Below are positions 3,920 to 64,000 of a DNA stretch of 64,000 nucleotides, piece by piece. The position numbers were made by a program, and so were the translations under genes. The notes under the pieces were generated by a model. It searched no databases. It was not told the DNA's origin and worked only from the letters and a program-made list of their open reading frames with translations. Source of the DNA: Parvimonas micra (GTDB taxonomy: Bacteria > Bacillota > Clostridia > Tissierellales > Peptoniphilaceae); contig NZ_JAJTJP010000003.1 in NCBI RefSeq assembly GCF_021300775.1, positions 62,001 through 126,000 of the forward strand, in the 5' to 3' direction. Each line of letters begins with the position of its first letter. The stretch's first letter is position 1.

Positions 3920-4936
3920 TTAATCCTCATATCCATTTGGATTATTTACTTGCCATCTCCAACTATCTTCACACATTTCTCTGATTCCATATTTAGCTTC
4001 CCAACCTAATTCATTTTTAGCTTTAGAAGAGTCAGCATAACACTCTGCAATATCTCCACTTCTTCTAGGAGTAACTACATATTTTATTTTTTTTCCAATA
4101 ACTTCTTCAAAGTTCTTAATCATATCTAAAACACTGTAGCCCTCTCCAGTTCCAAGATTATAAATCCTAACATCTTTACTATCTTCAAATTTCTTTATAG
4201 CTTTTATATGACCTAAAGCTAGGTCTAAAACGTGGATATAATCTCTTACACCAGTTCCATCTTTAGTTTCATAATCATCACCAAAAACTCTAACATATTC
4301 TAATTTACCAACTGCGACTTGAGTTATATATGGAATTAGATTATTAGGAATACCATTAGGATTTTCACCTATTTTGCCACTCTTATGCGCACCAATTGGA
4401 TTAAAATATCTAAGAAGAACAATATTCCAATTGTTATCTGAAATATATAAATCTCTAAAAATTTCTTCTAAAAATAACTTTGTTCTTCCATAAGGATTAG
4501 TTACAGAAAGTGGAAATTCTTCATTAATTGGAACTGTTTTAGGCTTTCCATATACAGTTGCTGAAGAACTAAAAATAATATTTTTTACATTAAACTCTCT
4601 CATAACTTCTATTAACTTTAAAGTTCCGTTAATATTATTATCATAATATTCTATAGGTTTTTCTACTGATTCACCAACAGCTTTAAGACCTGCAAAATGA
4701 ATTACTCCATAAATATCATTTTCATTAAATATCTTTCTAAGTATTTCTTTATCTCTAATATCACCTTCATAGAACTTAAACTTTTTTCCACTAAGTTCTT
4801 CAATTCTAGTTAAAACCTTTTTACTAGAATTGTAAAAATTATCAATTATTACAACTTCATATCCTTCATTTAAAAGCTCTATACAAGTATGTGAACCAAT
4901 ATATCCAGCTCCACCTGTAACTAAAATTTGCTTCAT
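3920..4936 (-). CDS. galE: UDP-glucose 4-epimerase
   Basis: Interconverts UDP-glucose and UDP-galactose (possibly also the N-acetyl forms) and supplies precursors for cell-surface glycans. The 338-residue length is standard. The short-chain dehydrogenase features are in place: the NAD-binding GGAGYIGSH at the N-terminus, the SSSATVYG serine region, and the catalytic YxxxK in NPYGRTKLFLEE; RYFNPIGAHKSG is the sugar-binding stretch. AGGAG lies 7 nt before the ATG. It sits 9 nt downstream of ribF with no other galactose genes nearby, so a housekeeping role in polysaccharide synthesis is likelier than galactose catabolism. Confidence 0.96.
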   Translation of the reverse strand: MKQILVTGGAGYIGSHTCIELLNEGYEVVIIDNFYNSSKKVLTRIEELSGKKFKFYEGDIRDKEILRKIFNENDIYGVIHFAGLKAVGESVEKPIEYYDNNINGTLKLIEVMREFNVKNIIFSSSATVYGKPKTVPINEEFPLSVTNPYGRTKLFLEEIFRDLYISDNNWNIVLLRYFNPIGAHKSGKIGENPNGIPNNLIPYITQVAVGKLEYVRVFGDDYETKDGTGVRDYIHVLDLALGHIKAIKKFEDSKDVRIYNLGTGEGYSVLDMIKNFEEVIGKKIKYVVTPRRSGDIAECYADSSKAKNELGWEAKYGIREMCEDSWRWQVNNPNGYED

Positions 4937-4945
4937 ATCAATCTC

Positions 4946-5872
4946 CTATTTATACTCATTAATTAATTCTCTACATTTAATTTCATCTTTTTTTAACTGC
5001 TCTATCAATTCTTCTATAGAGTTAAATTTGATATTATCTCTAAGCCTTTTTAAAAAGCAAAGCTCAATATCTTTCCCGTAAATATCTTCATGAAAATCAA
5101 ATATATGAGATTCTATTGTGGATTTTTTATTATCAAAAGTTGGATTATGTCCAACGCTTGAAAAACTGAAATATTCCTTACCATCTACTATTGTTTTTGT
5201 AAGATAAACACCTTCTTTTACCATAACGTAATTAAATGACATATCTAAATTTGCAGTTGGATATCCTAGATTTCTTCCTCTTTGGAAACCTTGTATAACT
5301 TTTCCCTTAATTGAAAAATAGTCTCCTAGCATAGTATTTGCTAATTCAATTTTCCCAGTTTTTATGTATTCAATAATTTTTGTACTACTAATTTCATTAT
5401 TATCATAGCTTAATTTTTCTATAATAGTACAAGATAATTGTTTTTCTTTCATATAAGATTCAATAAAATCAATATTTCCTTCACGATTTTTTGAAAATCT
5501 ATAATCTTTACCAACAACAATATGTTTGACATTAAGATTAATAGTTAAAAAATCTAAAAATTCAATTGGAGTTAAACTTTTAATTTTTTCAGAAAAATCG
5601 ATACTAAAAACATAGTCTATTTTGAAACTTTCTAGTTTTTTCAACTTATCTTCAAAAGACATAATTCTACTAAAATTTTGATTGAAAATTAAATCTTTTG
5701 TATGATTTACAAAAAGGAAAACTGCACTTTTATATCCTTTATTTAATTTTACATTGTTTAATTCTGAAATTAATTTTTGATGGCCTATATGGAAACCATC
5801 AAAATTTCCTAGAGCTACAACAATATCATCAAATTTAAAATTACTCTCCAAATTTAATTTAAAATGCTCCAT
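4946..5872 (-). CDS. ribF: Bifunctional riboflavin kinase/FAD synthetase
   Basis: Makes FMN from riboflavin and then FAD. The 308-residue protein has an N-terminal nucleotidyltransferase half with GNFDGFHIGHQKLI (HIGH-type motif) near residues 22-35 and a DYRFSKNREG stretch, followed by a C-terminal flavokinase half containing GFQRGRNLGYPTANL and the SSVGHNPTF/ESHIFDF regions. Length and order are normal. GAGG precedes the ATG, and a consensus promoter lies 33-61 nt upstream, so ribF leads the ribF-galE-MATE-YwlG-APH operon. Confidence 0.96.
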   Translation of the reverse strand: MEHFKLNLESNFKFDDIVVALGNFDGFHIGHQKLISELNNVKLNKGYKSAVFLFVNHTKDLIFNQNFSRIMSFEDKLKKLESFKIDYVFSIDFSEKIKSLTPIEFLDFLTINLNVKHIVVGKDYRFSKNREGNIDFIESYMKEKQLSCTIIEKLSYDNNEISSTKIIEYIKTGKIELANTMLGDYFSIKGKVIQGFQRGRNLGYPTANLDMSFNYVMVKEGVYLTKTIVDGKEYFSFSSVGHNPTFDNKKSTIESHIFDFHEDIYGKDIELCFLKRLRDNIKFNSIEELIEQLKKDEIKCRELINEYK

Positions 5873-5904
5873 ACAAACCTCTTCTTAATCCATATTTTAC
5901 AATA

Positions 5905-5933
5905 ATTATACACCAAATAATGCTTTATTTCAA
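5905..5933 (-). promoter_or_regulatory. Promoter for the ribF operon
   Basis: On the minus strand TTGAAA (5928-5933) and TATAAT (5905-5910) are 17 bp apart, 33 nt before the ribF ATG. Confidence 0.75.
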
Positions 5934-5964
5934 TTTATCATATTGGAATATCTATTTAAGAAAA

Positions 5965-5992
5965 TAAAAAACATGTTCTAATTGAACATGTT
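5965..5992 (-). terminator. Terminator after mrp
   Basis: Minus-strand 9-bp stem (AACATGTTC with its complement, 5970-5992) with a 5-nt loop and a short U-tract, directly after the mrp stop codon. Confidence 0.7.
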
Positions 5993-5996
5993 CTCT

Positions 5997-6833
5997 CTAT
6001 AATTTTTCAATTGAATCTAATATATCTGATAAATAATCTGTATCTAATTTCTCTGCTTCTCCCTCATCTACCATTTCAGGTATGTTTTTATTTAGAGGAA
6101 TTTTAGCAACATTTGTAAGTCCAAATTTTCTAGAAATATATGGTAAGTCACTTTCACCAAATATACTCAATTCTTCATTACAACATGGACATTTGAAATA
6201 ACTCATATTTTCAACAATTCCTATTATTGGAATATTCATCATCCTTGCCATCTTAACAGCTTTTTCAACAATCATAGATACTAAATCTTGTGGTGAGGTT
6301 ACAATAATAATCCCATCAACTGGTAGTGATTGAAATACTGTTAAAGCAACATCTCCTGTTCCCGGCGGCATATCCACAAACATATAGTCTACATTTTCCC
6401 AAACAACATCTGTCCAAAATTGCTTTATAACACCACCAATAACAGGCCCTCTCCAAATAACTGGATCAGTTTCTTTTTCAAGTAATAAGTTAATACTCAT
6501 TATTTTTATTCCATTTTCAGTTTTACATGGAATGATTCCTCTGTCATCTATTTGAGCTTTAGTGTCAATACCAAAAGATTTAGGTATAGATGGTCCAGTA
6601 ATATCTGCATCTAAAATACCAATTTCTTTTCCTCTCTTCATCATTCCAGTAGCAAGCATAGATGTAATTAAAGATTTACCAACTCCACCTTTACCACTTA
6701 TAACACCTATTACTTTTTTAATATCACTAAATTGATTTTGTTCAACCAATAAACTTTCAAATTCTTCAGATACTCCACAGCTTGATGCACTTGAGCATCC
6801 TGAGCATCCGCCTGAGCCACATCCACTACTCAT
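5997..6833 (-). CDS. mrp: Mrp/NBP35-type P-loop ATPase, iron-sulfur carrier
   Basis: A 278-residue Mrp/ApbC/NBP35-family ATPase that assembles or carries [4Fe-4S] clusters for other proteins in the cytosol. The deviant Walker A GKGGVGKS lies at residues 47-54, the ADITGPSIP switch follows, and a CPCC motif near the C-terminus matches the bridging-cluster cysteines of the family. The N-terminus is unusually rich in Cys, Gly and Ser (five cysteines in the first 20 residues), as in NBP35-like proteins. A G-rich ribosome binding site precedes the ATG. It follows the ABC exporter pair by 9 nt, so it may be co-transcribed with it, though no functional link is known. Confidence 0.92.
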   Translation of the reverse strand: MSSGCGSGGCSGCSSASSCGVSEEFESLLVEQNQFSDIKKVIGVISGKGGVGKSLITSMLATGMMKRGKEIGILDADITGPSIPKSFGIDTKAQIDDRGIIPCKTENGIKIMSINLLLEKETDPVIWRGPVIGGVIKQFWTDVVWENVDYMFVDMPPGTGDVALTVFQSLPVDGIIIVTSPQDLVSMIVEKAVKMARMMNIPIIGIVENMSYFKCPCCNEELSIFGESDLPYISRKFGLTNVAKIPLNKNIPEMVDEGEAEKLDTDYLSDILDSIEKL

Positions 6834-55589: not shown

Positions 55590-56768
55590 ATGGAATTAAT
55601 TAAAGATATTAAAAATTTAGAAGAAAAAGTTATTAATTGGAGACGTGATTTACACAAAATTCCGGAACTTGGAAATGATCTTCCATTAACTACAGCTTAT
55701 CTAAAAAAAGTTTTAGATGAAATTGGTGTTGAATATAGAACAGACTTCCCTAATGATTCTTCAATTTTAGTTACAATTAAAGGAGAACTTGAAGGAGATA
55801 AATGTATTGCTTTAAGAGCAGATACGGACGGTCTTCCAATGCCAGAATTTGTAGATTTACCTTTTAAATCTACAAATCAAAATATGCACGCTTGTGGTCA
55901 TGATGCACATGCTGCGATGATGTTAGGAACAATCTACGCATTAAATCAAATGAAAGATAAAATACGTGGAACAGTTAAATTCTTATTACAACCTGGTGAA
56001 GAAACAGGATCAGGTGCAATTGATATGATTAAAGGTGGTGCTTTAGAAGGAGTTGACTTCATATTAGCATTACACAATGGAAATACAACAGATGAACTTG
56101 ATGAAGGTAAAATTGGTGTAAAATATGGTTCAATGATGGCTTGTATGGATAAATTTACTATAAAAGTAAAAGGTAAAGGAAGCCATGGTGCTTATCCTCA
56201 TATGAGCATAGATCCAATAACTACATCAACTCATATTATTTCAGCAATTCAAGATATAGTTTCAAGAGAAATAAATGCTGTTGATACTGCTGTAATATCA
56301 GTTTGTATGATAAATGCAGGAAGTGCTTTTAACATAATTCCAGAAGAAGTTGAAATAGTTGGAACAGTTAGAGCTGTTTCAAAAGAAATTAGAGCGTTTA
56401 TAGCTACAAGAATTGAAGAAATTGCAACTAATATGGCAATTGCAATGAGAGCAAAAGCAGATTATGAATACCATTATGGTCCACCACCTGTTGTAAATAA
56501 TAATGATATCGTAGACTTTGCTAAACAAAGTGCAATTAATGCATTAGGCGAAGAAAATGTTCAAGTTTTACAAAAACCAATCTTAGCTGGTGAAGATTTC
56601 GCTTATTATCTTGAAGAGAAAAAAGGTGCTTATGTATTTTTAAGAAACCCTCTTTATGTTGATGGTATTGCCTACCCTCACCACAACGGAAAATTTGGAC
56701 TTAATGAAAAATATTTTATAAATGGAGTAAAATTCTTCGTTCAAGCAGTACATGATTATTTAAAATAA
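55590..56768 (+). CDS. M20D amidohydrolase (aminoacylase/hippurate hydrolase type)
   Basis: A 392-residue zinc enzyme that removes an acyl group from an amino acid or cleaves an indole- or benzoyl-amide. The metal site is visible in LRADTDGLPMPE, MHACGHDAHAAMML, GEETGSGA, LHNG and GEDFAYYLEEK; a lid domain lies between about residues 190 and 305 with GKGSHGAYPH. EEGxxK and GKFGLNEKYF close it. No signal peptide, so it acts after import by the two membrane proteins upstream. AGAGGAG upstream. Confidence 0.93.
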   Translation: MELIKDIKNLEEKVINWRRDLHKIPELGNDLPLTTAYLKKVLDEIGVEYRTDFPNDSSILVTIKGELEGDKCIALRADTDGLPMPEFVDLPFKSTNQNMHACGHDAHAAMMLGTIYALNQMKDKIRGTVKFLLQPGEETGSGAIDMIKGGALEGVDFILALHNGNTTDELDEGKIGVKYGSMMACMDKFTIKVKGKGSHGAYPHMSIDPITTSTHIISAIQDIVSREINAVDTAVISVCMINAGSAFNIIPEEVEIVGTVRAVSKEIRAFIATRIEEIATNMAIAMRAKADYEYHYGPPPVVNNNDIVDFAKQSAINALGEENVQVLQKPILAGEDFAYYLEEKKGAYVFLRNPLYVDGIAYPHHNGKFGLNEKYFINGVKFFVQAVHDYLK

Positions 56769-56773
56769 ATTTA

Positions 56774-56806
56774 AAAGCACCTAAATAATATTAGGTGCTT
56801 TTTTTA
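56774..56806. terminator. Bidirectional terminator after the amidohydrolase gene
   Basis: 11-bp stem AAAGCACCTAA/TTAGGTGCTTT, 6-nt loop and T-run; A's on the left. Confidence 0.9.
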
Positions 56807-56815
56807 TATTCTATT

Positions 56816-57523
56816 TTATAAAACACTTGTCTTTAAAACAAATGAAAGTATTACAATTCCAGTACTAAATACAATATGTCCAACTATAGCACTTTCTATT
56901 CTCTTTGTCTTTAAATAAACATATCCAAAAGTTAAGGAGATAATCACAATTTCTACTACTATAGGAAGTGTATTTTTTAAATTTATAAGTGCAAACAATA
57001 TTCCTGATAAACAAGCCGGTGTGAATAATCGTACAAATTTGTATCCACCTTCATATAAATCATATAAATAGCCGAATACTACATTTCTATAAACTATTTC
57101 AGTTACAAAAGGAATAATAAAAACTAAATTTATTAATGCCATTTTATTATTAGAAACCACATTTTTAATTCTAATAAATTCCCCTGTCATATCATAACTA
57201 TAACCTAAAAATCCTAAAATTTTAAATAAAATTTGAATTACAACTAATAAAACTATTCCTGAACATGCCCCAATCAAAATAGATTTTAATAAAGATTCCT
57301 TTTTACCATCTTTGGATATTGAATTTGTAGGGAATTTTTTACAAAACAAATATACAATAATCGCAAAAATCAAAGTTAAAGCAATATTTATATTTGTTAA
57401 GTTTTTAATCACAAATTCTGATTTTATATACTTATTTGCCAATGTAGGAAATCTTGAAATTCCTAAAAAATACACCAATGATATCAAGAATGATACAATA
57501 AAATTATTTGTCTTAACACTCAT
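56816..57523 (-). CDS. CPBP-family membrane protein, catalytic motifs lost
   Basis: A 235-residue polytopic relative of the CPBP/Rce1 intramembrane proteases with seven or so helices. The three active-site motifs are degraded: EExxxR reads TEIVYR (Thr141 where the catalytic Glu belongs), FxxxH reads FALIN (Asn181), and HxxxN reads HIVFS (Ser220). It is therefore probably a non-catalytic paralogue, perhaps a partner or inhibitor of the intact copy next door. GGAG before the ATG; 52 nt from the neighbour. Confidence 0.82.
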   Translation of the reverse strand: MSVKTNNFIVSFLISLVYFLGISRFPTLANKYIKSEFVIKNLTNINIALTLIFAIIVYLFCKKFPTNSISKDGKKESLLKSILIGACSGIVLLVVIQILFKILGFLGYSYDMTGEFIRIKNVVSNNKMALINLVFIIPFVTEIVYRNVVFGYLYDLYEGGYKFVRLFTPACLSGILFALINLKNTLPIVVEIVIISLTFGYVYLKTKRIESAIVGHIVFSTGIVILSFVLKTSVL

Positions 57524-57575
57524 AACTTTCTCCTAAAAATCACATCATTTTAAATATATTACAACTTATAAACTT

Positions 57576-58283
57576 CTAGTTCAAAAGAAACATATTTATT
57601 CCCATGCCCACAATATTTACACAATGATGTGTAAATCCTACGATATAAATATTTTTACAATATTTATATTGATATGATAAAACAATTGACATAAATACAT
57701 AGTGAATCATTCTATAGTCAAATAATCCCTCATGCAATATACCAAATATTATTCCAGAAATTAAACTTGCAGTAAAAAATCTAACATATTTGTTCGTTCC
57801 GTTATAAATATCATATAAAGTGCCAAAAAAGTATCCTCTAAATATAATTTCCTCTGCATATGCTGAAAATAATGTAATAAATACATAATTCAAATAATTA
57901 TATTGAAAAGCAAAAAAATCTGTCTTACCAAAACTATCACCTGATATTTTAAAATAATATAAAAGTTTAGTTAATGCAATTCCAAATACTATAATTAAAG
58001 TTAAAGAAATAATCACTGATAATATATATTTCTTTAAGTTTTTTATTTTAAATTTTTCACTGTTTTTTTCTATTGAATTTACATTTCTCAAAAAAATGCT
58101 GAAAAAAATTATAATTACATAAAGGGCTATCTCGTACTTTCTAACTACATTTACAAAATCCATTCCCCATGAATATATTTTTCCCTTATTTAAAAAAGAA
58201 ACTAAATTTTCCATTTGACCTGACATCAAAACTAAATATAAAACTATAAATCCTATTATAATACTTCTTTTAATCTTTGCCAT
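57576..58283 (-). CDS. CPBP-family intramembrane glutamic protease
   Basis: A 235-residue CPBP protease with intact motifs EEIIFR (Glu144, Glu145, Arg149), FGILH (His184) and HHCVN (His219, Asn223). Bacterial members cleave peptides inside the membrane and are often next to bacteriocin genes, as immunity or maturation factors. The start at 58283 follows GGAG; an in-frame ATG six codons upstream has no ribosome binding site. It lies 2.8 kb downstream of the radical SAM enzyme gene on the same strand. Confidence 0.88.
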   Translation of the reverse strand: MAKIKRSIIIGFIVLYLVLMSGQMENLVSFLNKGKIYSWGMDFVNVVRKYEIALYVIIIFFSIFLRNVNSIEKNSEKFKIKNLKKYILSVIISLTLIIVFGIALTKLLYYFKISGDSFGKTDFFAFQYNYLNYVFITLFSAYAEEIIFRGYFFGTLYDIYNGTNKYVRFFTASLISGIIFGILHEGLFDYRMIHYVFMSIVLSYQYKYCKNIYIVGFTHHCVNIVGMGINMFLLN

Positions 58284-58762
58284 AAATCTAACTCCAATCA
58301 TTTAATTTACAAATTAATAAATAAAATTAACCATATTTTACCTAAAAAAACGTAAATGTAGTATAATATTTGCTATGCAAAGTTATGATACCAAAAGAAA
58401 ACGTATTTGTCAAATGGATTTCACAAAATTCGGAAAAAGAATATAATATTGTAATTATTTTTTCTATTTTATTGTAAATACTATATTTGCTAACAAAAAT
58501 TTTATAATTACTTATAATTTTTTCTTATAATTAAATCACTATTCTTAAATTTTTAATCTTAGGTAAACATTTTTATAAAAAATATTTTAAACAAAAAAAC
58601 TCCAAAAGTTTTTACACTTTTGAAGTAATAATTATAAAATAAAAAATATTTACTTAATACTACTCTGTAAATCTAATCCCTAGTATGTAATCTCAATAGA
58701 AATTAAACGAATTGAATATAAGTCCTTATTTTGTTTACTCATATTCTAAATTTATGAGATTT
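58284..58762. other. 478-nt AT-rich region, no clear gene
   Basis: Holds the yaaA terminator hairpin (58593-58626) and, on the plus strand, a 23-codon frame at 58375-58446 starting at a predicted transcription start. Otherwise AT-rich with no feature I can support. Confidence 0.55.
58593..58626 (-). terminator. Terminator after yaaA
   Basis: CTTCAAAAGT/ACTTTTGGAG stem (one G-U), 5-nt loop and U7 on the minus strand, 137 nt past the yaaA stop. Confidence 0.65.
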
Positions 58763-59413
58763 CTAGCTATTTTTCACAAATACAAATTTATTCTCTAAAG
58801 ACATTTTTTCAACAAATACATATCCTTCTTTGTCAAATTTCTTTATATCTTCTATATTTTCAATTTTATTTTTAGTCATAAAATTAAGCATCATTCCTCT
58901 TGCTTTTTTTGAAATCGTAGAATGTTTTTTTAATTTTTCATCGACTTTTTCATAAAATTCAAAATCCAAAATTTGCTTCTCTGAAATGTACTTTTTAACT
59001 GTTTTTGAAAATTCATCACTTGCAAGATTAACAACGAAATCTGTATCTTTTAAAATGTTCTTAGCAATATCATCTTTCCAAAAATTATATAAATTTCCCA
59101 TTTTTGTTTTCATAAGAAAATCGAGTCTATATGGATTAATTAAATCAAAAGGTTTAAGCGCACCATAAAGTGCAGAAATAATAATTAAATGCTCTCTTAT
59201 ATACTCTAAATCATACTCATCAAAATCTTCTCTTTTTATATTTTTATAACACATTCCATCATACATATAAAAAGCCTTGCAATAATCTTTTGAAACCAAA
59301 ACTTCCGGAACATTCTTTAAAATTTCTTTTGTTTTATCAGAAAAATCAAATCCTGAAGAAAACCTCTCACAAGTTTTAGAAATTGTCTTTGCAGGTGATA
59401 AAATTATTTTCAT
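58763..59413 (-). CDS. yaaA: YaaA family peroxide-stress protein
   Basis: A 216-residue YaaA/DUF328 protein; in E. coli YaaA limits free iron during peroxide stress. MKIILSPAKTIS, SALYGALKPFDLINPYRLDFLMKTKMG, FWKDDIAKNIL, VVNLASDEFSK and KKARGMMLNFM match the family; it is about 30-40 residues shorter than the E. coli form. The start at 59413 follows AAGGAG; an in-frame codon 27 nt upstream has none. It is 16 nt after the ABC gene and so in the RiPP operon's transcript, though its role there is unclear. Confidence 0.9.
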   Translation of the reverse strand: MKIILSPAKTISKTCERFSSGFDFSDKTKEILKNVPEVLVSKDYCKAFYMYDGMCYKNIKREDFDEYDLEYIREHLIIISALYGALKPFDLINPYRLDFLMKTKMGNLYNFWKDDIAKNILKDTDFVVNLASDEFSKTVKKYISEKQILDFEFYEKVDEKLKKHSTISKKARGMMLNFMTKNKIENIEDIKKFDKEGYVFVEKMSLENKFVFVKNS

Positions 59414-59429
59414 ATTTCTCTCCTTAAAT

Positions 59430-61046
59430 CTATTTTTCAAGATCTATCAACTTATTACAAATAGATAATGGTAATTTTCTATGAGTTATTATTAGTATTA
59501 TCTTATCATTACTAATTTTTTCAATATTTTTAACAACTTCTTGTTCTGTTTCAAAATCTAAAGCAGAAGTAAATTCATCTAAAATCAACAAATTAGAATT
59601 TTTATACAAAGCTCTCGCAAGAGCAATTCTTTGCTTTTCTCCACCCGAAACATTTTTCCCTTTAATTTCAATTTCAAAATTTCCATCTTTTTTTGTATTA
59701 AACTTTTTAACCTGTGATAATTCAGTAGAAATTTCAAAATTATCTTCATCAAAATTATCAAAAGCTATATTTTCTTTTAATGAACCTTTAAATAAAAAGG
59801 CATCTTGTTCAAGATATGAAATCAAATTGTAGTAAGAAGTTCTGTTTATATCTTTTAGATCTATCCCATTTATTGTAATTTTACCATTGTAATTTAAAAT
59901 CCTCTTTAAAAGCAAATCTACTAATGTACTTTTTCCAGAACCTGATGGACCGACAATTCCTATAATATCTCCCTTTTCCATTTCTGTATTAAAATTTTTA
60001 AATATATAATTTTTTTCGTCATAAGAAAAAGTAAGATTCTCAACTTTTATAGTATCTATGCTTGAAATAGCCTCTTTCTTATCTTCAACTTCTGCACTAT
60101 CAACAAATTCTAAAATTCTATCACTCATTCCAAGAGTTACCTGAACACCTGAAAACCAATCTGATAAATTTCTCATAGGCTCATAAAGATAACCTAAATA
60201 AAAATAAAATGCAAATAATGAACCTAAAGACATATTTCCTGAATTAACTTCCATTGCTCCAAAAAGTAATATTGCAATTGGTAAAAGTATTACAATAAGA
60301 CCTGTAAGTCCATATCCTATTGCTGTATATTTCTTTATGTTTTTTAAATAAATTTCATATTTCTTTATATTTTCCCTAAACTTATTTAAAAAGAATTGTT
60401 CTTTCCCAAAAATTTTTATTTGAAATATTCCATCAGTATATTCCTTTACACTTTCCGTTACCAATGCAAAATGTTCTCTTTCATCTTTACTGTTCTTTCT
60501 TATAGCACTATCAACCTTTTTAAAAAATATTGTATAAATTGGAATTACAAATAAAACAATAATTGCAAGTTTAAAAGACATATAAAACATAAGTCCCAGA
60601 ACTATTGAGATATTAAGAATATTCAAAAATAACATTGGAAGTCCTATACTAATATCTTCACTTACAGTTTCGCAATCATGTAAAATTCTTGAAGTTAAGT
60701 CACTTGGATTTTGTTTATAATACTCCGGAGACTTATCCAAAGCTCCTTTTAACATAATACTTCTAAAATAATTCATGTATTCAACCCTATATGTATGCCA
60801 CTTATAATTTTGATATGAATCAAAAAATGCCTGTAATATTCCTAAAATTATGAGTAAAATTCCAAAATTTAAAACTTTTGAAAAATCTTCACTATTTTGA
60901 ACCATATTAACAAGTCTTCCTATCATATATGGAGCAATTGCATACAAAATAACAGAAAATGCACAAAGCAAAGTTATCTTGAACCTTCTAACTCTATATT
61001 CTCCTATATAAGACATAAGTTTTAAATAATTTCTTATACTATTCAT
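59430..61046 (-). CDS. ABC transporter (membrane and ATPase fused) of the radical SAM locus
   Basis: A 538-residue ABC exporter with six helices (about residues 15-300) and a C-terminal ATPase: Walker A GPSGSGKST, signature VSGGEKQR, Walker B LLILDEFTS with the catalytic Glu, H-loop THRK. It ends soon after the H-loop. There is no N-terminal C39 peptidase, so it cannot cleave a leader itself. The start overlaps the radical SAM gene by 8 nt, so the two are coupled. It is the likely exporter of the modified peptide. Confidence 0.93.
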   Translation of the reverse strand: MNSIRNYLKLMSYIGEYRVRRFKITLLCAFSVILYAIAPYMIGRLVNMVQNSEDFSKVLNFGILLIILGILQAFFDSYQNYKWHTYRVEYMNYFRSIMLKGALDKSPEYYKQNPSDLTSRILHDCETVSEDISIGLPMLFLNILNISIVLGLMFYMSFKLAIIVLFVIPIYTIFFKKVDSAIRKNSKDEREHFALVTESVKEYTDGIFQIKIFGKEQFFLNKFRENIKKYEIYLKNIKKYTAIGYGLTGLIVILLPIAILLFGAMEVNSGNMSLGSLFAFYFYLGYLYEPMRNLSDWFSGVQVTLGMSDRILEFVDSAEVEDKKEAISSIDTIKVENLTFSYDEKNYIFKNFNTEMEKGDIIGIVGPSGSGKSTLVDLLLKRILNYNGKITINGIDLKDINRTSYYNLISYLEQDAFLFKGSLKENIAFDNFDEDNFEISTELSQVKKFNTKKDGNFEIEIKGKNVSGGEKQRIALARALYKNSNLLILDEFTSALDFETEQEVVKNIEKISNDKIILIITHRKLPLSICNKLIDLEK

Positions 61047-62355
61047 ACTCAATAAACCCTTCATCTTTTAAATAGTTCAAAAATTTTGTCATTTCAATCA
61101 TATCAATTTTTTTGTTTCTACAATATATTTTTAATGTATTATAGTCTTTAATTTTAAAATTCATAATATTTTTTAAAATATCGTAACAATACTCATTCAA
61201 TTGTATAGTGCTAAAAGTCTTAGTGCTTATTAATATGTTATTTTCATAACTTCTTGATACTCTAATACTCTCCTTTACTAGTGATATATTTTCAAAACGC
61301 TTGATATTAATATTCTCAATAAAATAATCACATTGATGAATTTTATCATTATCACTAATATATAAAGGACAAGGAAAACACTCTTGCATAAAATAATTAC
61401 AATTCTTACAAGGATATAAATTTTTATATGTACTATTCTCTATAATTTGGAAAGGAATAGAAAAATCTTCTTTATTCCAAATTTTCAAAAAATCCTTTTT
61501 TATTGAATTATTGCAATTTTCTAATTCATTAATATGGCAATATCTATCACATGGATATAAATTTCCTTTATTATCCAAAAAGCAAAAACTCGTACCAGCC
61601 CCACAACCATGAGTTATTTTTGGAAAATCCAATCCATAAACAGTTTTCATAAAATCTTTTGATAAAGGTCTCACAAATTTTGGTAATATTTTTATTCTGT
61701 CTTTAACATTTTCATATTTTTGTGATATAATTTGCATAACTTCTATAATTTCTTCCATAGAAAGCGACAAATTTATATCTTTAGCATTTCCATCCTCAAT
61801 AAGTTCCAAAATATCAATTCTATTGATTCCTATTTTAATACAAAAATCAATGAAACTTCCTATATAACGATAATTTAATTTACTTAGAACTATATTAGCA
61901 ACCAAATCAACTTTGGAATCTAACTTTGTTTTGCATTCATTAGTTATATTTATTGCTTTTAATATCCTATCAAAAACCTTTTTCCCTCTTATTTTATCAT
62001 TTAATTCTGCATTATCTCCTTCAATACTAAAAACTATATTATCTAGATACTTGTTACTTAATAATTTAGAAATTAAATTTTCATTCATCAATAAAGAATT
62101 TGTATTAAACCCAAATTTAATACTATATTTTTCTAAAATCTTACATATATCAACAAAATCTTTTCTAGTTGTAGGTTCTCCTCCCAGAATGTGGATATAA
62201 TCAATTTTATATGTACTTTCTATATTCTTTATTATTTCTTCAAATTCATACGCTGTTAGTTCATTTGCTATATCTCCTAAAAATTTCCCATTTATACAAT
62301 GTTTACAATTTAAATTACATTTATATGTGCAATCCCATTTTATTGAAATTCCCAT
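61039..62355 (-). CDS. Radical SAM/SPASM peptide maturase with C-terminal PqqD-like segment
   Basis: A 438-residue enzyme. The 4Fe-4S motif is CNLNCKHC (Cys13, 17, 20); HILGGEPTTRKDF is the SAM-binding GGEP. A SPASM region for auxiliary clusters follows at about residues 248-345: CGAG, FCFLDNKGNLYPCDRYCH, CKNCNYF, QECFPCP, HQCDYF. The last 75 residues (LVKESIRVSRS to FLNYLKDEGFIE) resemble a PqqD/RRE domain that binds a leader peptide. It would make thioether or related cross-links on the peptide encoded just upstream. AAGGAG precedes the ATG. Confidence 0.87.
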   Translation of the reverse strand: MGISIKWDCTYKCNLNCKHCINGKFLGDIANELTAYEFEEIIKNIESTYKIDYIHILGGEPTTRKDFVDICKILEKYSIKFGFNTNSLLMNENLISKLLSNKYLDNIVFSIEGDNAELNDKIRGKKVFDRILKAINITNECKTKLDSKVDLVANIVLSKLNYRYIGSFIDFCIKIGINRIDILELIEDGNAKDINLSLSMEEIIEVMQIISQKYENVKDRIKILPKFVRPLSKDFMKTVYGLDFPKITHGCGAGTSFCFLDNKGNLYPCDRYCHINELENCNNSIKKDFLKIWNKEDFSIPFQIIENSTYKNLYPCKNCNYFMQECFPCPLYISDNDKIHQCDYFIENINIKRFENISLVKESIRVSRSYENNILISTKTFSTIQLNEYCYDILKNIMNFKIKDYNTLKIYCRNKKIDMIEMTKFLNYLKDEGFIEYE

Positions 62356-62386
62356 CTTATTTCTCCTTCTTAAATTAATCTAGACT

Positions 62387-62429
62387 ACTATTATTGGAGA
62401 AGATATAGAATATCTTCTCCAATAATAGT
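62387..62429 (-). repeat. Perfect 20-bp hairpin between precursor and maturase genes
   Basis: 62387-62406 is the exact complement of 62410-62429 with a 3-nt AGA loop. It starts 6 nt after the precursor's stop and has no U-tract after it. It is probably a 3' stabiliser or processing site that keeps precursor mRNA in excess of the maturase mRNA. Confidence 0.85.
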
Positions 62430-62434
62430 GATGT

Positions 62435-62527
62435 CTACTTCCCTTTGCAATGATTATTACCATTACAGTTATTTCCAGCAGCACCTTTTTGTCCATGGTT
62501 ATGTTTTAATGTTGCATATGATAACAT
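62435..62527 (-). CDS. 30-residue RiPP precursor peptide
   Basis: A short gene with GAGGTGG 5 nt before its ATG. The first 15 residues (MLSYATLKHNHGQKG) would be the leader, and the C-terminal half GNNCNGNNHCKGK has two cysteines, Asn/Gly rich, six residues apart. Gly, Asn and Cys residues are typical targets for radical SAM cross-linking. Position upstream of the maturase, its own consensus promoter and the hairpin after it support the call. No known precursor family recognised; cleavage site not known. Confidence 0.72.
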   Translation of the reverse strand: MLSYATLKHNHGQKGAAGNNCNGNNHCKGK

Positions 62528-62604
62528 ATTTTCCACCTCTTAATTATAAATTTTAAAGGCACGTTAAAACATTAACAGTATGTATTATATACCTTTGTAA
62601 ATTA

Positions 62605-62633
62605 ATATTAGCAAATTATATAACATTTGTCAA
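62605..62633 (-). promoter_or_regulatory. Promoter of the RiPP operon
   Basis: Minus-strand TTGACA (62628-62633), 17 bp, TAATAT (62605-62610). The 70-nt leader can fold AAAGGTA with TGCCTTT around an inner GTTAA/TTAAC hairpin. Confidence 0.85.
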
Positions 62634-62769
62634 CTACTATATAATAAATATTATTAAAAAAATCTAATAAAAACTTTTTATGTAGTATTTTTATTGTCTA
62701 TTTAATATAAATATATCAGAAAGTGATTTTTAAAAAAATATATTATTATAATAATATATACTTATATTA

Positions 62770-62797
62770 TACAAAAAATAGCACCGAAGTGCTATTT
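62770..62797 (-). terminator. Terminator after the CDF gene
   Basis: AAATAGCAC/GTGCTATTT stem closed by a UUCG tetraloop, U-tract on the minus strand. Confidence 0.9.
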
Positions 62798-63969
62798 TAT
62801 AAATAATCATATAATATTGTTATTGATATTTTTAAATTATTATCGTAGTTTTTAATCAGTTCTTCTATCTCACATTTAAATATATTTTCATCAAATGTTT
62901 TACTTAATTTATTTCCGTATAATGCTACTTGCATACCTACAAAATATTCCTCTCCCTCTTTGTAGATTGCGAAGTCGTGAATTGATTTTATATATTCAAA
63001 CTGATTTTTCCAATTTTCAGTAATTTCTTTTAATTCAATTTCTCTTTCCGTAAAGTTTCCGCCAACAGGTTCAACATGTATAACAAGTACAATTTCATAT
63101 TTATCATAAATTTCTTTTTCAATAAGACTCATAAGATTATGTGCTTTTACTAAACTCATTTCACAGTCAACTTCTACGTCAACAGTACCAATAGTTTTTA
63201 AATGTCCATATTTATGAAAAGTATAATTATGAATTCCTAATATTTCACTATGATTTTCAATGTCCGTCAATACTGATTTGATAAGCTCTAAATCAGGAGT
63301 TTCTCCAATAAGTTGGCTTATTGTTTCTCTTGCTAAAGAAAAACCAGAAAATAGTATAAATGCAGAAACTATTAGACCCACAACTCCGTCAACGGGAAAA
63401 GTAGTATAATCGGCAAAAATCATAGCAATTAATACAACCGATGTTGTAAAAACGTCACTTAGACAATCAATTGAGGTAGCCTTTAAAATACTTGAATCTA
63501 TTACTTTTGAAAGTTTTCTATTGAATAAACTCATCCAAAGTTTAACTACTATTGAAATCACTAAAAATATTATTCCGATTCTTCCCATTAGTATTTTTTC
63601 AGGATTTATAATTCTTTCGATAGATGTCTTTGCAAACTGAACTCCTACAATCATAACCATCATTGAGATTATTAAAGTTGTTATATATTCAACTCTACCA
63701 TGTCCATAAGGATGATCCTTATCCGGTGGAGCAGAAGAAAATTTAAAGCCTAAAACTGTTGCAAAAGAGTAAATAGCATCTGAAAAATTATTTACCGCAT
63801 CAGCTGTTATTGAAACTGAATTAGCCAAAATACCTATTAAAAATTTTGATAATCCTAAAGTAACATTTAAAAATGTTCCTATCAAACCCGAAAAATATCC
63901 AACTTTTTTTCGGTCATATTTATCTGTATTTCCAATTCTTGAAATATTTAATATTTTTTTCTCTAACAT
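62797..63969 (-). CDS. Cation diffusion facilitator family metal exporter
   Basis: A 390-residue CDF protein exporting Zn2+, Fe2+, Mn2+ or similar for H+. Six membrane helices (about residues 25-225) include SITADAVNNFSDAIYSF, with the metal-site Asp pair, and DKDHPYGHGRVEY; the C-terminal cytosolic domain (from about 230) is longer than average. Metal not identified. Not part of the RiPP operon, from which it is separated by a terminator and a promoter. Confidence 0.93.
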   Translation of the reverse strand: MLEKKILNISRIGNTDKYDRKKVGYFSGLIGTFLNVTLGLSKFLIGILANSVSITADAVNNFSDAIYSFATVLGFKFSSAPPDKDHPYGHGRVEYITTLIISMMVMIVGVQFAKTSIERIINPEKILMGRIGIIFLVISIVVKLWMSLFNRKLSKVIDSSILKATSIDCLSDVFTTSVVLIAMIFADYTTFPVDGVVGLIVSAFILFSGFSLARETISQLIGETPDLELIKSVLTDIENHSEILGIHNYTFHKYGHLKTIGTVDVEVDCEMSLVKAHNLMSLIEKEIYDKYEIVLVIHVEPVGGNFTEREIELKEITENWKNQFEYIKSIHDFAIYKEGEEYFVGMQVALYGNKLSKTFDENIFKCEIEELIKNYDNNLKISITILYDYL

Positions 63970-64000
63970 ACTTACTCCATAAACAGTATAATATTTCCAC

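Follow-up and report, generated by a model that had tools for sequence, protein, structure and literature searches.

A very probable radical SAM RiPP cassette in Parvimonas micra with a recurring Asn-x-Cys precursor motif

Among ribosomally synthesized and post-translationally modified peptides (RiPPs), suisactin A has two 9-membered sactionine rings, formed over a single residue and at C-alpha (excerpts of PMC12395415 and PMC13361665), and in NxxcA a thioether runs from Cys23 to C-beta of Asn20, with two residues between them (excerpt of PMC8326336). According to the consulted part of a review, an auxiliary cluster has an open site in sacti- and ranthi-synthases but not in SuiB and PqqE. Medium-ring thioethers are hard to close directly, as the available portion of a report on suisactin-ring synthesis relates (PMC12395415). 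The subject here is a minus-strand cassette in 64,000 nucleotides of Parvimonas micra (assembly GCF_021300775.1, contig NZ_JAJTJP010000003.1, positions 62,001 to 126,000), that whole stretch being called the window, where a gene for a 30-residue peptide is followed by those for a radical S-adenosylmethionine (SAM)/SPASM enzyme and an ATP-binding cassette (ABC) exporter, and then by yaaA. That it is a radical SAM RiPP cassette is very probable, because a peptide is paired with the enzyme in all seven cassette copies, a RiPP recognition element (RRE) fold is predicted and an exporter is present. The whole of the preferred explanation, namely a precursor, a leader bound by the RRE, thioethers between each Cys and the Asn two residues before it (Asn at −2), and export, is judged fairly probable.

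The open reading frames (ORFs) for peptide, enzyme and exporter lie where an earlier note, made from the letters of this DNA, had placed them, and its naming of a radical SAM/SPASM enzyme and a fused ABC exporter agrees with the Pfam matches (Radical_SAM, 1.7e-20, and SPASM, 2e-4, in the enzyme; ABC_membrane and ABC_tran in the exporter). That note did not have the Asn-x-Cys rule, the RRE split off as a gene of its own, the hairpins at six of six folded loci or the variable insertion site.

Short peptides with Asn-x-Cys beside the enzyme

The window precursor is MLSYATLKHNHGQKGAAGNNCNGNNHCKGK, its gene preceded by AAGAGGTGG; the predicted leader covers about residues 1-17, and the core, GNNCNGNNHCKGK, holds N19-x-C21 and N25-x-C27 within GNNCNGNNHC. 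Among the 322 ATG ORFs of 20-45 residues in the window (nested starts counted) it alone has two N-x-C motifs. Counting as members those enzymes that are accompanied by the cassette exporter, there are seven enzyme copies in six genomes: two Parvimonas, two Anaerococcus, Clostridiaceae bacterium M8S5, which has two enzyme copies and one exporter, and a distant genome, G767. Throughout the first five genomes each enzyme copy is preceded by one short ORF with a good ribosome-binding site, the core being VNNNCNIVV in P. parva, NNNCNNNC in both Anaerococcus peptides, and GNNCNGCNGC and TNLCNNC, one per enzyme copy, in M8S5. A scan of the cassette strand for ATG ORFs of 18-60 residues with N-x-C, covering 4.5-6.5 kb in each of the six neighbourhoods, gave exactly seven peptides (26-35 residues, all with ribosome-binding sites, one also with a nested longer start), one per enzyme copy. 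The earlier note had made its reading depend on the peptide ORF being conserved, and an ORF of the same motif does stand beside all seven; the distant G789 enzyme is without one. That note had also found no known class for the precursor, which still holds, as no NCBIfam or Pfam model matches the window peptide or the five of its six relatives that were scanned.

What do the peptides share? In the six from the first five genomes Asn stands at −2 of 12 of the 13 Cys, at −1 of 8, at −3 of 6, at −5 of 7 and at +1 of 7; with the G767 peptide added, the 14 Cys have it at −2 in 13 cases, at −1 in 9 and at −3 in 6. Judged from these sequences, no partner of Cys is as well constrained as Asn at −2. By eye, Cys and Asn are the only residues common to all cores, with no conserved aromatic residue or Lys there, and the leaders are short (about 15-20 residues) and have little in common beyond an aromatic residue near the start (LSYATLK in the window; LSFGIIK, LTFGKEL and KYKRVDR in others). 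The CX3D motif of precursors in the PapB subfamily of ranthipeptides is absent from the window peptide and occurs once in one of the seven, that of Anaerococcus sp.

Parvimonas and Anaerococcus are human-associated anaerobes, and the enzyme is thinly spread around them. It is absent from the other four of six genomes at genus level, and is found in 4 of 130 at family level (own genome, P. parva S3374, here G101, and the two Anaerococcus; E 1e-30), in 5 of 249 in the order and in 1 of 391 in a class sample (both 1e-50), and, in a phylum sample of 398 at 1e-35, in its own genome, G767, G789 and G788. A scan of 84,980 genomes, one per species, of which the best 79 of 360 relatives' loci were kept, gave P. 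parva, Anaerococcus marasmi, Anaerococcus sp. 9403502 and M8S5 at E 3e-91 or better, the next relative among those 79 being at 4e-26; since a locus enters that scan only through one of two short conserved peptides, members without them, such as G789, are missed. At four of its distant loci a match is confined to the exporter's ATPase part, and at none does it extend over the whole exporter. Against the window enzyme the two pieces of the G767 enzyme have 51% and 44% identity, and the G767 exporter is 38% identical to that of the window; between members across all six genomes the exporters are 33-56% identical. The enzyme ORF of the window runs on into the exporter ORF, and overlaps among the enzyme, RRE and exporter genes are also found in four named relatives.

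Searches further afield gave little or nothing. A scan of genome contigs with a single protein yielded 13 candidate stretches, of which none proved a relative; from plasmids came 18 records and from phages 2, at most 32% identical, and those with annotation were MftC, PqqE and further proteins of the radical SAM kind; among viral contigs there were six weak relatives, the best at E 1e-12; and order and class searches around G767 added no member, returning 1 of 2 and 1 of 59 genomes, in each case G767 itself. Nothing is drawn from a degenerate DNA pattern run over the 130 family genomes, because it was too loose, with matches in 79, and its spacing was unlike that of real cores, and it missed the real cores of G101 and G015. 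Four loci were set aside as other systems: that of G789 (L138), L016 (Caloranaerobacter), with RRE-like ORFs by eye, and, by our reading, L065 (Tissierellales bacterium SM3-B4.1) and L139 (G788). The enzymes of the last two are 27% and 24% identical to that of the window and come with an RRE-like ORF; both loci have two further radical SAM-like genes in a row, and L065 has a candidate precursor at 4747-4839. ATG ORFs of 18-60 residues with N-x-C, sought there and at the G789 locus (L138) on both strands, number one in L016, three in L065, one in L138 and two in L139, and they look like chance, none having two N-x-C motifs or lying just before the enzyme on its strand. At L138 the enzyme (4721-6208) is followed by a 122-residue protein (6239-6607) whose Cys-rich stretch, CRSCDGCRNCKN, lies towards its end and has a motif other than N-x-C; it may be another type of precursor for the same enzyme architecture.

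The maturase and its recognition element

CxxxCxxC at residues 13-20 of the window enzyme and seven SPASM Cys (251, 269, 316, 319, 326, 329 and 342) are invariant in all six aligned enzyme copies. An AlphaFold2 model (26 alignment rows; predicted local distance difference test, pLDDT, 89.9) has a barrel, a SPASM region and, at the C-terminus, three strands followed by three helices and a last strand. The closest folds are those of SuiB (Z 29.1; rmsd 3.1 over 311 aligned residues), SkfB (Z 26.2; 3.5 over 280) and CteB (Z 23.2; 3.2 over 298), matches that cover at most residues 1-346 of the model; 5wgg and 5why we take to be CteB structures, which fits the review. SuiB is also the best sequence match in the Protein Data Bank (PDB), at 2.8e-14. 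The enzyme is below cut-off for every NCBIfam model among the best 25 listed: it reaches 105 of 265 bits with its best-scoring model, for the mycofactocin maturase, which leaves it outside that equivalog, 81 of 381 with the PqqE equivalog and 57 of 340 with NF047865, the ranthipeptide model of the PapB subfamily. No curated family searched in NCBIfam or Pfam fits the enzyme or the peptide. A second radical SAM match in the same genome (C2:141026) was rejected as a paralogue, being 28% identical over 147 residues and MoaA-like by reading.

The earlier note had called the C-terminal segment PqqD-like. By profile this did not stand, as no PqqD or RRE model matches, nothing exceeds the cut-off in Pfam or NCBIfam, and the best weak Pfam match (0.003) is to an unrelated family; by structure prediction it did, an RRE fold being what the models give and what the note had staked its reading on. 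The evidence is in part a natural fission. Four genomes have the segment fused to the enzyme and two, M8S5 and G767, have it as a separate gene, that of G767 coding for 87 residues. In M8S5 the first enzyme ends before the RRE unit, and an 88-residue ORF then overlaps its stop codon; the last portions of the four fused enzymes can be aligned with this ORF, and a BLAST confined to 12 proteins puts it together with the window segment at 1e-7. The structure predicted for it (5 rows, pLDDT 89.3) matches leader-bound TbiB1 (E 5.5e-4, TM 0.75), the N-terminal RRE of TigE, PqqD and CteB, with Z 11.2 for TbiB1 (rmsd 2.4, 83 aligned) and 11.1 for TigE. Counting against a call by Z, MINA53, a non-RiPP protein, scores 10.6 against the same model, and the family call thus rests on the Foldseek ranking and on context. 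The modelled C-terminus of the window enzyme has the same order of strands and helices as the M8S5 RRE, and is predicted to be an RRE fold, with leader binding as its likely role. Since G789 has an RRE-like end and no N-x-C peptide, the C-terminal RRE is wider in its spread than that peptide.

M8S5 (L013, 4829-9688) has two precursor-enzyme pairs around one exporter and one separate RRE gene. No RRE gene follows its second enzyme in the stretch read, which suggests that the single RRE may serve both. With a separate RRE next to two enzymes, M8S5 offers a natural setting in which to examine whether an RRE acts in trans.

Proposed chemistry and its rivals

How might the cassette work? The ribosome would make the 30-residue precursor, as the ORF, its start site and its conserved pairing suggest; the leader, with its aromatic residue near the start, would bind the predicted RRE of the enzyme; and the radical SAM/SPASM domain would abstract a hydrogen from a carbon of the Asn that stands at −2 to each Cys, and join this carbon to the Cys sulphur. 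From the motif, the rings would be N19-C21 and N25-C27, with a loss of 2 Da per ring and hence of 4 Da for the window peptide, and attachment would be at C-alpha, giving a 9-membered ring, or at C-beta, giving a 10-membered one. The exporter would carry the product out and, as no leader protease is recognised in the cassette, any trimming would be by a protease from outside it; the product would most likely act on competitors or as a signal, to go by known relatives in kind. Very probably the enzyme cross-links the peptide, and the product would presumably be a sacti- or ranthipeptide. For the former the ring spacing of suisactin agrees with N-x-C, and for the latter the Asn acceptor of NxxcA would suit. 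That the bond joins Cys to Asn at −2 is put, from motif and analogy, a little above an even chance. A fuller picture is possible and rather doubtful: a new subfamily making 10-membered C-beta Asn-Cys thioether rings that span one intervening residue, among them neighbouring pairs (NNNCNNNC) and a chain of three Cys (GNNCNGCNGC); its leader-binding domain would have shifted to the C-terminus, and a single separate RRE in M8S5 would serve two enzymes and two precursors.

How much weight can the motif bear? Each core of the six peptides (residue 15 to the end) was shuffled 100,000 times, and 12 of 13 at −2 was reached in 0 of 100,000 shuffles, and at any offset from −6 to +6 in 1 of 100,000, a guide and not a strict probability, because they take no account of shared ancestry and the Anaerococcus pair have one and the same core. 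That caution is one of several points that tell against the preferred explanation. The cores are so rich in Asn that the motif may appear tighter than it is, and one of the 14 Cys, that of an upstream FSC in P. parva, lacks Asn at −2. The pairing at seven of seven copies depends on counting only enzymes that have this exporter: the next relative, G789 (29% identical, profile E 2e-73), has a fused C-terminal RRE-like end without an N-x-C peptide, and no cassette exporter in the 6.9 kb read, where the contig ends 0.7 kb past the enzyme's neighbour. The G767 enzyme gene is interrupted by a transposase-like gene of 400 residues, for which reason that copy is probably not functional, and the G767 candidate peptide, ending FSNNCNILL, was found by motif search only; it lies directly after the exporter, downstream and not upstream of it, and none was seen upstream of the enzyme. 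As for the seven SPASM Cys, they are what such enzymes usually have and vary little or not at all in the 26-row alignment of wider homologues; thus they mark a SPASM enzyme, without telling thioether from C-C chemistry.

Other bonds, or none, have accordingly to be considered. The streptococcal NxxcA has Cys joined to the beta-carbon of an Asn at −3, the same acceptor residue, and N24-x-x-C27 of the window peptide and NNNC in three relatives would permit the like here; however, the count at −3 is less than half of that at −2, and the two M8S5 cores offer no Asn at −3 at all, so that an NxxC-type ranthipeptide is improbable. Equally improbable is that Cys is joined to another residue, or that a C-C or C-O bond is made by a SuiB-like enzyme, with Asn at −2 as a recognition element, for while SuiB, a C-C enzyme, is the best match in the PDB by fold and by sequence, nothing besides Cys and Asn is, by eye, common to the cores. 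Might the enzyme form no cross-link, and be an epimerase or other tailor of Asn, leaving D-Asn and Cys that are free or in a disulphide? The Asn-rich cores would suit it, and proteusin epimerases also have a C-terminal RRE, but these hold the radical SAM cluster only (excerpt of PMC8326336), in contrast to the seven SPASM Cys in six of six copies here, and Cys, besides Asn, is kept in every core; this reading is a little less likely again.

A last alternative has the short ORF as a regulatory leader peptide, an attenuator sensing Asn or Cys supply, and the enzyme acting on some other substrate. The runs of Asn and Cys codons are indeed followed by a strong hairpin (20-bp stem, 3-nt loop, −26.5 kcal/mol, z −6.2), and hairpins are present at the same gap in six of the six loci folded, G767 apart, with z from −3.5 to −6.2. 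However, no T-tract follows the window hairpin, which is not among the terminator-like sites found in the stretch, RRE domain and exporter accompany the enzyme, and the G767 peptide is located after the exporter, all of which makes attenuation very improbable indeed. The hairpin may instead stabilise or trim the message, and probably lets far more peptide than enzyme be made. Rfam gave no match over 56000-64000. Thioether formation from Asn at −2 to Cys remains the preferred explanation, and with one peptide of about 30 residues and one enzyme the cassette is a small, complete, testable system for medium-ring thioethers, its seven natural precursors with one, two or three Cys being a ready substrate panel.

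Features, neighbouring genes and described systems

Table 1. Features of the cassette and the gene that follows it (window coordinates)
Feature	Position	Strand	Basis
Candidate promoter, TTGACA-17-TAATAT	62605..62633	−	Consensus scan
Precursor peptide gene, ATG, 30 aa	62435..62527	−	ORF and ribosome-binding site; N-x-C peptides beside all 7 cassette enzyme copies
Intercistronic hairpin, peptide/enzyme genes	62356..62434	−	Predicted fold
Radical SAM/SPASM maturase, 438 aa	61039..62355	−	Pfam, alignments, AlphaFold2 model, fold matches
Predicted C-terminal RRE (PqqD-like) domain of maturase, about residues 352-438	61042..61302	−	Model topology and alignment with separate M8S5 ORF
ABC exporter half-transporter, 544 aa, permease and ATPase in one chain	59430..61064, start probably 61046	−	Pfam; conserved in members
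yaaA, next gene after exporter	58763-59413		

The TTGACA/TAATAT promoter of the earlier note is present, but such matches are no commoner than chance would give (36 found in the stretch, 35.8 expected), and it is therefore supported by its place only. Of the two exporter starts the later, 61046, fits the relatives better by eye. A C39 leader peptidase is missing from the best 25 of the exporter's 33 Pfam matches (E up to 1), in keeping with the note's remark that a dedicated leader protease is lacking; three relatives' exporters have none among Pfam matches at E up to 0.01. No NCBIfam model reaches its cut-off on the window exporter among the best 25 listed.

The cation efflux gene and yaaA that flank the cassette are directly adjacent in G103 and in P. 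parva, whose own cassette is located elsewhere, and are separated by a pair of ABC genes in G100 and by an ABC pair, a 2235-residue protein and transposase-like genes in G102; as the flanking genes thus adjoin or hold other inserts in Parvimonas relatives, the cassette is at a variable site. In G102 (L112) the 3′ end of the cation efflux gene occurs twice, about 13 kb apart, around the insert, for which reason the yaaA side looks like a Parvimonas insertion hotspot. The cation efflux gene of G103 (L113) matches in two pieces (residues 1-293 and 287-389) and appears broken. After yaaA in the window come two minus-strand genes for CPBP/Rce1-like membrane proteases (56816-57523 and 57576-58301; PF02517, 8e-12 and 2e-13). 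Proteins of this kind can confer immunity in bacteriocin loci; similar-looking genes follow yaaA in relatives without the cassette, and the pair is not tied to it. Control by Rgg/SHP was rejected, no Rgg-like gene being present by Pfam and reading among ORFs of at least 110 residues in the 17 kb around the cassette, where the sole regulator-like ORF codes for a PucR-type helix-turn-helix protein about 7 kb downstream of the enzyme.

How does all this stand beside what has been described? Among the best-ranked open-licence papers, judged by title or the start of the abstract, there was no description of a radical SAM RiPP from Parvimonas or Anaerococcus, nor of an Asn-x-Cys (NxC) thioether or a C-terminal RRE family like this one; the family may already figure in the bioinformatic atlas of radical SAM RiPPs cited in PMC11002830. 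Suisactin A and QmpB, of the streptococcal QMP subfamily, are alike in being a radical SAM RiPP system with a ring over one residue (excerpts of PMC13361665 and PMC12395415), the comparison with QmpB being by description only. There, however, the A-ring analogue was built from dehydrobutyrine-Phe-Cys (PMC12395415, in part), which suggests Thr as acceptor in place of the Asn proposed here. NxxcA and NxxcB (Streptococcus orisratti, S. porci; NxxcB likewise compared by description) share an Asn acceptor, a downstream Cys donor and a SPASM radical SAM enzyme, but their Asn is at −3 (excerpt of PMC8326336), a position that it occupies at one of the two window Cys and that is no rule in the family; and as the available part of PMC13361665 has it, the NxxC subfamily is Rgg-linked, in contrast to the surroundings of this cassette. 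Streptosactin (GggA-GggB-GggC) is a small sactipeptide whose exporter is broadly of one type with that of the cassette, yet it has a pair of 4-residue rings (PMC13361665, in part), and the window exporter, with 118 of 750 bits, is far below the GggC cut-off; elsewhere in its genome there are two transporters with a better GggC match. Proteusin epimerases have a C-terminal RRE likewise, and only the radical SAM cluster (excerpt of PMC8326336), whereas a SPASM region is found here both by Pfam and by its invariant Cys. With SuiB, CteB and SkfB it is the core fold that is common, at Z 23-29; in these and in TigE the matched core starts at residue 92-107, behind an N-terminal RRE, quite a difference from the cassette enzymes, where the predicted RRE is C-terminal or a separate protein.

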